The notes beneath the pieces were generated by a model that worked only from the letters and a program-made list of their open reading frames with translations, had not been told where the DNA came from and made no database searches. A program made the translations under genes and the position numbers. Positions 8,320 to 30,130 of a DNA stretch of 34,589 nucleotides are shown in pieces. The stretch spans positions 1-34,589 of the forward strand of contig JAHDNZ010000072.1 in assembly GCA_018435125.1 (NCBI GenBank), given 5' to 3'. How positions within the stretch are numbered: the stretch's first letter is position 1; each line of letters starts with the position of its first letter. The stretch is from Bacillota bacterium. Its GTDB lineage: Bacteria > Bacillota > DTU065.

Positions 8320-8880
8320 ATGCATAAAAACTTGAAAACCCTATTTTGGGTATCCCTGTTGGGAGTGTTGGCAGTTGCACTATCGGGGTGCCTCTTTACC
8401 CCTTCAGAAGGCGGAATTATCTCTATGGGTAGGCCATATGAAGTAGTTAATTTGAGTCAACATGGAGGTTATAACGATCCTGATCTGGTGAAATTAACCG
8501 ATGGCAAAGTTGGTAATAATGAAGTTTGGGATGGGCCATATGCTGGCTTTGGGGCAACAGATGGTACTCAACCGAGCTATTTGATTATCGATTTGGGAGC
8601 TGCTAAAACTGTTAGCTCTGTGTCAATTCATTGCTACCATGGCAAATGGGGTATTTACGCTCCTGAGAAAATCTATACTGCTTTATCAAACGATAAAGTA
8701 ACTTGGACTGACCCAGTTTACCACAATGTTACCGAAGAACATTGGAATTCTGAACTCGCAGACAAAAACCCGGACGGTGCATGGTATAGCATGGCTCTTA
8801 ACGGTTCCGGTCGTTATGTAAAGGTAGGTTTCGAAGACTTTGGTTGGGCATGGGCAAGCGAAATAACTGTTATTCAATAG
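8320..8880 (+). CDS. lipoprotein with an F5/8-type C (discoidin-like) domain
   Basis: A 186-aa lipoprotein. The N-terminus is a signal peptide ending in the lipobox LSGC, with Cys24 to be lipidated. The rest is one beta-sandwich domain resembling F5/8 type C (CBM32-like) modules: KLTDGK near the start, then W-G-GF, YLIIDLG, a VSSVSIH strand, the GIYAPEKI segment, and RYVKVGFEDFGWAWASEITV at the end. Such domains usually bind glycans or cell-surface polymers. ATG 8320 is preferred over ATG 8305 because the GGGG site lies at 8307-8310 and the signal peptide then starts with MHKNLK. It follows the beta-barrel gene by 36 bp and is closed by a terminator, so the two form one operon. The same domain type opens the DUF4855 protein at 17243. 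Confidence 0.8.
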   Translation: MHKNLKTLFWVSLLGVLAVALSGCLFTPSEGGIISMGRPYEVVNLSQHGGYNDPDLVKLTDGKVGNNEVWDGPYAGFGATDGTQPSYLIIDLGAAKTVSSVSIHCYHGKWGIYAPEKIYTALSNDKVTWTDPVYHNVTEEHWNSELADKNPDGAWYSMALNGSGRYVKVGFEDFGWAWASEITVIQ

Positions 8881-8905
8881 ACATTGAGTCATAAAACTTT
8901 TAAGT

Positions 8906-14960: not shown

Positions 14961-14995
14961 AGGCTGTAGGCAGTCTGTCTAAAAACAGAATTTGA

Positions 14996-15026
14996 GGGGA
15001 GGTTAGCGGTTTAACCGCGAAAAATG
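14996..15026 (+). promoter_or_regulatory. lemA ribosome binding site separated from AUG by a hairpin
   Basis: The Shine-Dalgarno GGGGAGG (14996-15002) is 21 bases from ATG 15024. Between them lies the inverted repeat GCGGTTTAACCGC (15006-15018). If folded, the remaining spacing is 8 bases, which is optimal. An in-frame TAA at 15012 rules out an earlier start. Confidence 0.6.
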
Positions 15027-15587
15027 AAACAAGGTAATAAAACGCTTATTATAATTATTGTGGTTTTAGTTGCTTTAGGTTTATTTATGGTTAGCAATTA
15101 CAATAATCTTGTAAGTTTAAGTGAAGAAGTCGATGCTCAGTGGGGCCAGGTAGAAAATCAGCTTCAAGCCAGATATGATAAAATCCCCAATATTGTTAAT
15201 ACGGTAAAAGGTTATGCCAGTCATGAAAAAGAAGTATTTGAGTCTATAGCCAATGCCAGAGCAAAATTAGCCGGAGCCAATACTGTTAATGAGCAGGTTA
15301 AAGCAGCCAACGAGATGGAATCAGCTCTAGCCAGACTGTTAGTGGTTGTTGAAAATTATCCGGAATTAAAAGCTGACGCCCAGTTTAACCAATTGATCTA
15401 TGAGATCTCCGGCACCGAAAATCGTATTGCTGTAGAAAGAATGCGCTACAACGAAACTGTTAAGACTTATAATAGTAAAGTAAAGCGTTTTCCAACTGTA
15501 CTGTTAGCTGGAATGTTTGGCTATGAACCAAGAACTTACTTCGAAGCTGCCAAAGGGGCTGAACTAGCTCCTATAGTGGAGTTTTAG
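15024..15587 (+). CDS. lemA: LemA family membrane protein
   Basis: A 187-aa protein with one N-terminal membrane segment (about residues 7-24) and a helical-bundle domain outside the membrane. Family signature segments visible are VDAQWGQVENQLQARYDKIPNIV (shown here only in part of its length, residues about 36-58), VKGYASHEKEVFESI and the C-terminal YNSKVKRFPTVLLAGMFGY. LemA proteins lack a known enzymatic role and are commonly encoded next to TPM-domain proteins, as here. It is transcribed with the TPM gene, 62 bases downstream. The ribosome binding site is unusual: it is placed upstream of a small hairpin (see the separate entry). Confidence 0.93.
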   Translation: MKQGNKTLIIIIVVLVALGLFMVSNYNNLVSLSEEVDAQWGQVENQLQARYDKIPNIVNTVKGYASHEKEVFESIANARAKLAGANTVNEQVKAANEMESALARLLVVVENYPELKADAQFNQLIYEISGTENRIAVERMRYNETVKTYNSKVKRFPTVLLAGMFGYEPRTYFEAAKGAELAPIVEF

Positions 15588-15607
15588 AGCACGGAATTTA
15601 GGAGGGT

Positions 15608-15652
15608 GGAGGGTGCGAGTAAAGCTTTAGAGTTTTCTCGCGACAAAAGATG
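15608..15652 (+). promoter_or_regulatory. tpm ribosome binding site separated from AUG by a hairpin
   Basis: A strong Shine-Dalgarno cluster (AGGAGGGTGGAGGG, 15600-15613) lies 36 bases before ATG 15650. Between them 15615-15641 folds as GCGAG-AAAGC with GTTTTCTCGC (about 10 bp, one bulged T at 15620, one G-U pair, 6-base loop). Taking out the hairpin leaves 9 bases between GGAGGG and AUG. Confidence 0.6.
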
Positions 15653-16408
15653 AAAAAACCAGTTGGAATATCTATCATAGTGTTAATTCTTTCCCTTAGC
15701 ATCTTCGCTCTGTCGCCAATTCCAGGAACTAATGTCCATGATTTTGCTCATATTTTAGGTAATACTTTAGAATTAGACCAAAGGATCGAAACTCTTTACC
15801 ACCGTACCAGGGTAGAGATGGCAGTTGTAACTGTAGCTGAGATAAAAAACACTACCCTTGAGTTTTATGCCGTAAAGCTTTTTGAAGACTGGGGCATAGG
15901 TAAAAAGGGTGAGGATAAAGGCCTGCTTTTATTGATTTCGCTAGAGCCCAGAACAGTGCGTTTAGAAGTGGGATATGGCTTAGAAGGAGCCTTACCTGAT
16001 TCTTTTGTGGGACTCAAATTAGATGAGTTAGTAGCACCTGCCTTGGCTCAAAACGATATCGAGGGTTTAATAAGCTTTGTTGATGTTTTAGAACAAAGAA
16101 TTATAGAAAAAGGAGATCAGGCCGGAGACTTTTATGCTGGGCAAAATGAAAGCCTAGTTGAATACGAATACGATAACGATTTAACCTCAGATCGCAGTAG
16201 CTTGAAAGGGTTTTTCCTCTTTTTAATCATTATAGCTTTGATTATTTTAGATCTGCGTTTTACCGGCGGTAGAATGCTAAGATCAATAATCCGTTCAGGG
16301 TCTAGTGGCAAAGGAGGAGGTTTTGGGAGAGGTTCTTTTGGCAGTGGCAGAGGCAGGTATGGCGGCGGTGGCCGAAGTGGTGGCGGCGGAGCTTCAACTA
16401 AATGGTAA
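15650..16408 (+). CDS. TPM-domain membrane protein (YgcG/Psb32-like)
   Basis: A 252-aa protein: signal peptide/anchor at residues 5-22, a TPM domain (about 28-150) with NVHDFAHIL, MAVVTV, WGIGKKGEDKGLLLLIS and LEVGYGLEGALPDSF motifs, a second membrane span (about 187-201), and a Gly/Ser/Arg-rich tail ending GGGGASTKW that is typical of this family. TPM domains bind divalent metal and some have phosphatase activity. The partnership with LemA is conserved in many bacteria; a role in the envelope is likely but the function is not settled. Its translation start lies behind a hairpin. A bidirectional terminator follows. Confidence 0.92.
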   Translation: MKKPVGISIIVLILSLSIFALSPIPGTNVHDFAHILGNTLELDQRIETLYHRTRVEMAVVTVAEIKNTTLEFYAVKLFEDWGIGKKGEDKGLLLLISLEPRTVRLEVGYGLEGALPDSFVGLKLDELVAPALAQNDIEGLISFVDVLEQRIIEKGDQAGDFYAGQNESLVEYEYDNDLTSDRSSLKGFFLFLIIIALIILDLRFTGGRMLRSIIRSGSSGKGGGFGRGSFGSGRGRYGGGGRSGGGGASTKW

Positions 16409-16410
16409 AT

Positions 16411-16443
16411 AAAAACCTGCGCACTAAAGCGCAGGTTTTTTAG
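16411..16443. terminator. bidirectional terminator between tpm and the ygjP-like gene
   Basis: A 12-bp perfect stem AAAAACCTGCGC/GCGCAGGTTTTT with a 6-base loop. The T-run extends on the plus strand and the A-run gives U-tracts on the minus strand, serving both convergent genes. Confidence 0.92.
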
Positions 16444-29090: not shown

Positions 29091-29137
29091 AGAGGTGGAA
29101 AAACGCAGGGCAAAAATGTTTCCTGTGTATGGATATG
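29091..29137 (+). promoter_or_regulatory. pfkA ribosome binding site separated from AUG by a hairpin
   Basis: AGAGGTGG (29091-29098) lies 30 bases before ATG 29129 and 36 before ATG 29135. ACGCAGG (29103-29109) pairs with CCTGTGT (29122-29128; one G-U), closing directly before ATG 29129. Taking out the hairpin leaves 4 bases to the first and 10 to the second ATG. No other start in frame suits this site. Confidence 0.5.
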
Positions 29138-30130
29138 AAGGTTGTAGGTATTGTAACAAGTGGCGGCGATGCTCCCGGAATGAATGCGGCTATAAGAGCA
29201 TTCACTAGGATGTCTAATCGTTTAGAAATGGATGTTTTTGGAGTCTATCATGGCTTTTTTGGTCTAATTAACGATGAAATTATTCGACTTGATACTCGCA
29301 AAGTTGGGGATATTCTCCACCGCGGCGGTACATTTTTGAAAACTGCCAGATGTCCGGAGTTTAAAACCGAGGCCGGACAGGCAAAAGCTGTTGCCAACCT
29401 AAAAAGATATGGTATGGAAGGCCTAGCAGTAATTGGCGGTGACGGTTCCTTTCGAGGCGCTTTGGCTTTGCAAAACTGGGGTATTAAGGTAGTTGGTATA
29501 CCCGGAACAATTGATAACGATATTCCCTGCACTGATTTTACTATTGGGTTTGACACAGCTGTAAACACAGTTGTTGAAGCAGTAAACAAGATCAGAGATA
29601 CAGCTACCAGCCATGAACGCACCTTTGTGGTTGAAGTGATGGGACGCAACTGTGGCGATTTAGCGCTTTGCTCTGGACTTGCAGGTGGTGCGGAAGTAAT
29701 TTTAATACCTGAGGTTGAACCCGATTACGAAGAAGTATGTCGTCGGGTTCAAAAAAGCCACGATCAAGAGAAAAGTCATGCTGTGGTGATTGTAGCCGAA
29801 GGTGTAGGGGGAGATCCTGACAATCGTAACCTTTACGATTCTTCAGCCTTTAGGGTAGCTAATTATATTAAAGAAAAGACTAAAATTGATACCAGGGTTA
29901 CGATACTTGGACATATTCAAAGAGGTGGTTCACCTACTGTAAACGACAGACTCTTAGCGAGTCGCCTTGGAGCTGAAGCGGCTAAAGCTTTATATGACAA
30001 CGACACTGGTAAAATGGTTGCTACTCAAGAGGGAAAAATTCTTCGCGTTGATTTAGAATACGCTCTTAGCCACAAAAAAACTGTAAAAAAAGAATATCTA
30101 GAACTAGCTTCAATGTTAGCGAGTGTTTGA
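29135..30130 (+). CDS. pfkA: ATP-dependent 6-phosphofructokinase
   Basis: Phosphorylates fructose-6-phosphate, the committing step of glycolysis. The 331-aa protein starts MKVVGIVTSGGDAPGMNAAI, as the family does, and has GGDGSFRGA (about 101-109) and PGTIDNDI with the catalytic Asp (about 123-130), plus GHIQRGGSP. Gly at the GGDGS position, and not Asp as in GGDD enzymes, indicates ATP and not pyrophosphate as phosphoryl donor. Start ATG 29135 is chosen on family length; ATG 29129 (MDMKVV) is equally open, and the frame runs up to ATG 29054 without a ribosome binding site. The gap of about 90 bases after accA holds two hairpins. It is followed by pyk, as in Bacillus. Confidence 0.93.
   Translation: MKVVGIVTSGGDAPGMNAAIRAFTRMSNRLEMDVFGVYHGFFGLINDEIIRLDTRKVGDILHRGGTFLKTARCPEFKTEAGQAKAVANLKRYGMEGLAVIGGDGSFRGALALQNWGIKVVGIPGTIDNDIPCTDFTIGFDTAVNTVVEAVNKIRDTATSHERTFVVEVMGRNCGDLALCSGLAGGAEVILIPEVEPDYEEVCRRVQKSHDQEKSHAVVIVAEGVGGDPDNRNLYDSSAFRVANYIKEKTKIDTRVTILGHIQRGGSPTVNDRLLASRLGAEAAKALYDNDTGKMVATQEGKILRVDLEYALSHKKTVKKEYLELASMLASV

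Follow-up and report, generated by a model that had tools for sequence, protein, structure and literature searches.

Hairpin-folded spacers in putative split ribosome-binding sites of chromosomal genes across the bacterial class DTU065

The window analysed here (34,589 nt at its full length) is one contig of G000, a 2.55-Mb genome (91 contigs) belonging to DTU065, a poorly known GTDB class of uncultured bacteria that is sister to Limnochordia (PMC11456536). It carries an inorganic pyrophosphatase gene followed by lemA (15024..15587, + strand; Pfam LemA, E 6.6e-57) and then by tpm, encoding a TPM domain protein (15650..16408, + strand; Pfam TPM_phosphatase, E 1.3e-27), with lemA starting 266 nt past the pyrophosphatase gene and tpm starting 62 nt past lemA in the same orientation. 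An inverted repeat with a T run lies 3' of tpm (window 16410-16441) and resembles an intrinsic terminator of a lemA-tpm operon.

Upstream of tpm a strong Shine-Dalgarno (SD) cluster, AGGAGGGTGGAGGG (15600..15613, + strand), lies 36 bases from ATG 15650, just as the initial annotation had described it, and a single T separates it from a hairpin, GCGAGTAAAGCTTTAGAGTTTTCTCGC (15615..15641, + strand), which is in turn followed by the spacer GACAAAAG (15642-15649, + strand) and the ATG. The hairpin is evident from sequence and folding and has the 27 nt and the one bulge (a U) that were claimed for it, but its stem folds with 11 bp (including one G-U) and not 10. Subtracting the hairpin reduces the raw SD-ATG spacing of 36-37 nt to an effective spacing of 9-10 nt: the nearer core, GGAGG at 15608-15612, gives a raw value of 37 and an effective value of 10, or 36 and 9 when the last base of the purine run is taken as the origin. 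The 9 bases of effective spacing originally proposed thus hold for this second core only, since the first (AGGAGG, 15600-15605) is 44 nt from the ATG and its effective spacing would be 17; GGAGG 15608-15612, as the sole core giving 9-10 nt, is most likely the operative one. The cluster had also been called too distant for direct initiation, with which the raw spacing agrees, and no strong near SD was found in the lemA and tpm leaders of any of the family's genomes. In a 150-nt context the outer pair of the tpm hairpin has a probability of 1.00, and the predicted minimum free energy (MFE) structure pairs the tpm SD with a CUUUCCC within the tpm gene (probability of an unpaired SD 0.09); no CUUUCCC-type partner was seen in the relatives described below. 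The 81-nt tpm leader as a whole shows no more stable folding than its shuffled versions (z = -0.35) and the hairpin itself is marginal against dinucleotide-shuffled spacers (p = 0.045), and the tpm leader by itself is weak evidence for bridging.

The lemA leader has the same layout, reading GGAGG, TTA, GCGGT-TTA-ACCGC, GAAAA and ATG 15024. Its SD core (14998..15002, + strand) lies within GAGGGGAGG (14994-15002) and its 5-bp hairpin (15006..15018, + strand; seen in sequence and folding and with counterparts in relatives) has an outer pair probability of 0.94 in a 150-nt context and shortens a raw spacing of 21 nt to an effective 8 nt. Its sequence is, as had been noted, unrelated to that of the tpm hairpin. 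A third case in the window precedes pfkA (6-phosphofructokinase, 29135..30127, + strand; 90% identity to the G003 pfkA, NCBIfam-named), where the SD core AGAGG(TGG) is at 29091..29095 (+ strand) and folding gives a bridging hairpin, ACGCAGGGCAAAAATGTTTCCTGTGT, at 29103..29128 (+ strand), with a hairpin present in 5/5 family genomes. Two candidate pfkA starts lie 6 nt apart, the effective spacing being ~13 nt for ATG 29135 and 7 nt for ATG 29129, which is in frame with it; the stems of pfkA orthologues are markedly different but equal in position. The layout had been presented as a feature of one operon, and while it is indeed shared by lemA and tpm, it is recurrent across the class, with pfkA an instance within the window itself.

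Relatives were available as the four other genomes of the same order in the collection (G001-G004; draft metagenome assemblies). All three of them that have lemA-tpm (G001, G003 and G004) show the order SD, hairpin, ATG at both genes, so the stem conservation among close relatives on which the initial annotation had made its proposal depend was found for lemA and tpm alike. Their stems are largely rebuilt compared to G000, the tpm hairpins being TAGTAAAGAAGTTAAAACTCTTTACTA (27 nt) in G003, GGGAAAG-TTT-CTTTCTC in G004 and GGGAAGG-CTA-CTTTCTC (or an alternative fold at a similar place) in G001, and the lemA hairpins AGCGGT-ATT-ACCGCT, GGCG-TTTT-TGCC and GGCG-ATTT-TGCC in G003, G004 and G001 respectively, and the tpm leaders of all three retain the GGAGG core. 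Some of these hairpins are weak, namely those of lemA in G001 and G004 and of tpm in G004 (-3.0 to -4.5 kcal/mol, p 0.055-0.20).

Besides lemA-tpm, ten further families show the layout (gapA, pfkA, fba, mreB, mraY, dacF, uppP, oppD, glgA and a GH4-type glycosidase, bgl). Orthologous leaders were compared in ten families, each picked for having a hairpin in one member or more, and as many as five genomes supplied the 37 leaders. Start sites rest on homology, and those of gapA, pfkA, glgA and mreB are secure, since family models align with the N-termini of these proteins from residue 1-3. Across the 37 leaders the raw spacing was 21-44 nt (30.7±6.6) and the effective spacing 10.0±2.6 nt, and in 32 of them the hairpin beat shuffled spacers at p<=0.05. 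For gapA, pfkA, bgl, mreB, lemA and tpm a bridged hairpin was found in every family genome holding the gene. The gapA stem arms, for example, are GCTGAAATC/GATTTCAGC in G003 and GCTGAAACC/GGTTTCAGC in G004, with unrelated loops, and pairs have been exchanged in mreB (outer G-C to A-U in G001), bgl (A-U to G-C at two positions), uppP (A-U to G-C) and oppD (C-G to U-A). When stem columns were pooled, 13 of 80 were variable and pairing was kept in 12 of those 13, with two-sided changes in 6 (bgl twice, gapA, uppP, mreB and oppD); about 0.001 of column shuffles, which ignore relatedness, matched this covariation. Stem arms were curated by hand for this count because automatic alignments of the bgl, tpm and lemA leaders misplaced them, and the significance lies in the pooled count alone, the single alignments being too shallow and each non-significant. 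The suggestion that selection acts on the shape and not the sequence of the hairpin is supported by this pooled compensatory change together with the rebuilt lemA and tpm stems.

Two of these families showed further structures of their own. In the mraY leaders of G001 and G004 a GGAG close to the ATG lies within the hairpin's 3' arm, and therefore the same sequence could act as a stem or as a proximal SD; this ambiguous case is possibly an intermediate between the bridged and proximal-SD leader types. Upstream of gapA a second covarying hairpin, CCTGTGTC-TTTA-GACACAGG and its counterparts, lies ~45-90 nt from the ATG in 5/5 genomes, after a CggR-like ORF and before a conserved GATACCAATA-like stretch (loci L213-L217), and this hairpin and stretch are possibly an mRNA processing element.

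A measure less biased than that of the ten families, which had been selected for a hairpin-bearing member, came from scanning G000 (~1.0 Mb) and G003 (0.75 Mb) for leaders with a strong SD solely at 15-48 nt, and seeking a single hairpin anywhere in the spacer; starts were taken, unverified, as the first in-frame start of each ORF and the null was 60 dinucleotide shuffles of the spacers. Hairpins were found in 20 of 63 such far-SD-only leaders in G000, compared to 5.1±1.8 in shuffles, and in 15 of 38 in G003, compared to 3.6±1.4. An effective spacing of 5-13 nt resulted in 14 of the G000 leaders (2.4±1.3 when shuffled, with a maximum of 5 in 60 shuffles) and 13 of the G003 leaders (2.1±1.2, maximum 6). 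No excess was seen in the controls, G024 and G051 of the same phylum giving 1 and 2 and 77 loci from diverse bacteria giving 1, which is chance level; a stretch of E. coli had 0/41 annotated genes with a strong SD at far positions only and hence was uninformative as a control. Effective spacings of the bridged leaders concentrate at 7-9 nt, close to the 6-8 nt at which the ordinary SDs of these genomes have their peak. Bridged genes in the G000/G003 scan were gapA, pfkA, fba, glgA, mreB, mreC, mraY and uppP, and further dacF, oppD, cysS, folB, a Na/Pi symporter gene, pgeF and bgl, and hairpin-bridged starts come to ~1.5-2% of genes, a figure that still includes chance hits and from which the strict SD definition leaves others out. 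Two earlier versions of the count were dropped: a permissive MFE criterion, which gave a weak excess (36 vs 22.6±3.7) because long spacers fold regardless and many leaders have proximal SDs, gave way to the search for single hairpins in far-SD-only leaders, and a too-strict filter against proximal SDs threw out likely cases with GGAG in the 3' arm. The 16S 3'-end (anti-SD) pattern was not found in any of the five MAGs, which may merely reflect missing rRNA operons. The excess over shuffles and the conservation convincingly take the layout well beyond chance.

Two other inverted-repeat arrangements were recorded at gene starts. On the minus strand of L165 (~16670 in reverse coordinates) and in its L242 counterpart a hairpin conserved between two genera abuts a GTG start (AGGTAGATATTTTACCTGTG; AGCAGAAGTATTTGTTTCTGCTTGTG), the start assignment being uncertain, and 5' of a gene in both L039 (~8840-8905) and L181 (~8680-8739) there is a long inverted repeat, perfect and with AGGAGGAGAAGCTT in one of its arms, which is probably a terminator.

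Loss of the hairpin could be followed in fba. The fba leader of G000 reads GAAAGGTAGGTGAA-hairpin-GAATAG-ATG and that of G003 matches it, whereas in G002 it reads GAAAGGTAGGTTATAGAT-ATG without a hairpin, with AGGTAGGT 7 nt from the ATG; likewise glgA of G000 is without a bridging hairpin and has a proximal GGGAG instead. Within the class, gapA has GGAGG 33-34 nt away and a covarying hairpin in 5/5 genomes, while families outside it contributed 26 gapA leaders, 25 of them with a proximal GGAGG-type SD. In genomes from elsewhere in the phylum, ordinary proximal SDs likewise precede lemA and most tpm genes.

It could be argued that the hairpins are regulatory elements, such as protein-binding sites, RNA thermometers or mRNA-stability stems, and that the spacing is a by-product. 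They are stable in a 150-nt context, and many of the genes belong to central carbon metabolism (gapA, pfkA, fba and glgA) or to the cell wall (mraY, uppP, dacF, mreB, mreC and pgeF), which could suggest a regulon. Against this, stem and loop sequences vary between genes and between orthologues, making a common ligand site unlikely, the effective spacings gather near the ordinary SD optimum, and pure regulation would not predict that the hairpin-less fba has a proximal SD; we consider this explanation unlikely. Hairpins that sequester the SD or AUG, as RNA thermometers do, were rejected as candidates because the conserved bridging stems contain neither, and a riboswitch or other known RNA family was also rejected, as Rfam at gathering score matched two tRNAs alone in the window and nothing at six orthologous loci.

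For tpm itself, translation might instead pass through a short upstream ORF starting at GTG 15613 (VRVKL*, 15613-15630) with reinitiation at ATG 15650, since AGGAGG precedes this GTG at an ideal spacing of 7 nt, and 19 nt separate the stop of the ORF from the tpm start codon. The ORF is, however, absent from the tpm leaders of G001, G003 and G004 and from the lemA, gapA, pfkA, bgl, mreB, fba and mraY leaders (mreB by eye), a possible start of this kind occurring elsewhere only in dacF (GTG 4 nt after GGAGG) and in one uppP leader, which makes such a route very improbable, and a leader-peptide attenuator was rejected because VRVKL* is found in G000 tpm alone and is not conserved. We give equally little credence to expression of tpm by translational coupling from lemA, with the SD cluster and hairpin incidental: the 62-nt distance and shared orientation of the two genes would fit it, but a gap of this length that holds a stable hairpin is ill suited to coupling, the same layout occurs at gapA (~90 nt past the preceding ORF) and at lemA, 266 nt past the pyrophosphatase gene, and it is retained in relatives. 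That short inverted repeats simply fall by chance near SD-like purine runs would fit the unremarkable tpm leader taken in isolation, but it is barely credible given the excess over shuffles in two genomes and its absence from controls, the pooled covariation and the conservation across five genomes.

The preferred reading, to which we assign a probability of about 0.86 from comparison of sequences, is that these hairpins are folded spacers in split ribosome-binding sites, which would be used in ~2% of genes of class DTU065. The 30S subunit would pair with the distant GGAGG core while the hairpin between SD and AUG remains folded and absorbs 12-30 nt, and the start codon would then be presented at a normal effective distance of about 7-10 nt; hairpins may be gained, lost and rebuilt as long as the effective spacing remains functional. 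We infer that ribosomes initiate with the hairpin still folded and that expression depends on it. Bridging may carry an added regulatory role, for example in tuning. A wider and rather doubtful extension is that the class as a whole has evolved a distinct way of defining start sites, with folded spacers accepted alongside short ones, perhaps with changes in the 30S subunit or initiation factors, and perhaps with tuning or co-regulation of glycolytic and cell-wall genes.

The recurrence of bridged sites in core chromosomal genes of DTU065 suggests that the rule for the spacer between SD and AUG concerns physical and not nucleotide distance, and orthologous leaders in which hairpins are gained, lost or rebuilt form a natural data set, directly usable for testing how a stem lying between the SD helix and the P site is accommodated by the 30S subunit. 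Predictors of start codons or ribosome-binding sites that score linear spacing alone would be expected to miss or misplace bridged starts.

To our knowledge, hairpin-bridged ribosome-binding sites have been documented for two phage T4 genes only. A literature search (one open-access library, with few subscription journals) likewise gave T4 genes 25 and 38 and no bacterial case. In gene 25, described as having a split ('accommodated') ribosome-binding site (Nivinskas 1999; Malys and Nivinskas 2009, as reviewed in PMC3014915), the SD is 27 nt from the AUG and a hairpin reduces this to 11 nt, while in gene 38 a hairpin brings the SD from 22 nt to 5 nt of the AUG, and initiation drops when mutations destabilise the structure (PMC3014915). 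Our measurements recover both, with raw 27, effective 9 and p 0.010 for gene 25 and raw 22 for gene 38.

Several known systems were compared with the DTU065 leaders. The standby-site model (PMC3936740) has in common with them the idea that the 30S subunit accommodates leader hairpins, with an optimal aligned SD-AUG spacing, but its hairpins are upstream of the SD whereas those of DTU065 are inside the spacer. T4 e and soc (PMC3014915) and RNA thermometers also have a small hairpin at the initiation region, but in these cases it is the stem that contains the SD or AUG, and translation is repressed. In T4 gene 38, a single gene, the hairpin carries a UUCG tetraloop and is very stable, whereas DTU065 loops are mostly 3-10 nt with no fixed sequence. 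In T4 gene 25 a hairpin also lies wholly between a distant SD and the AUG, and the sequence-level marks of the gene 25/38 type (a far SD, a hairpin in between, a functional effective spacing and compensatory conservation) were found in DTU065. The gene 25 hairpin, however, belongs to one viral gene and is conserved among close T-even phages only (PMC3014915), while in DTU065 many unrelated chromosomal genes have different hairpins that show gain, loss and rebuilding, and it is this apparent recurrent chromosomal use of hairpin-bridged sites across a bacterial class that would be new.
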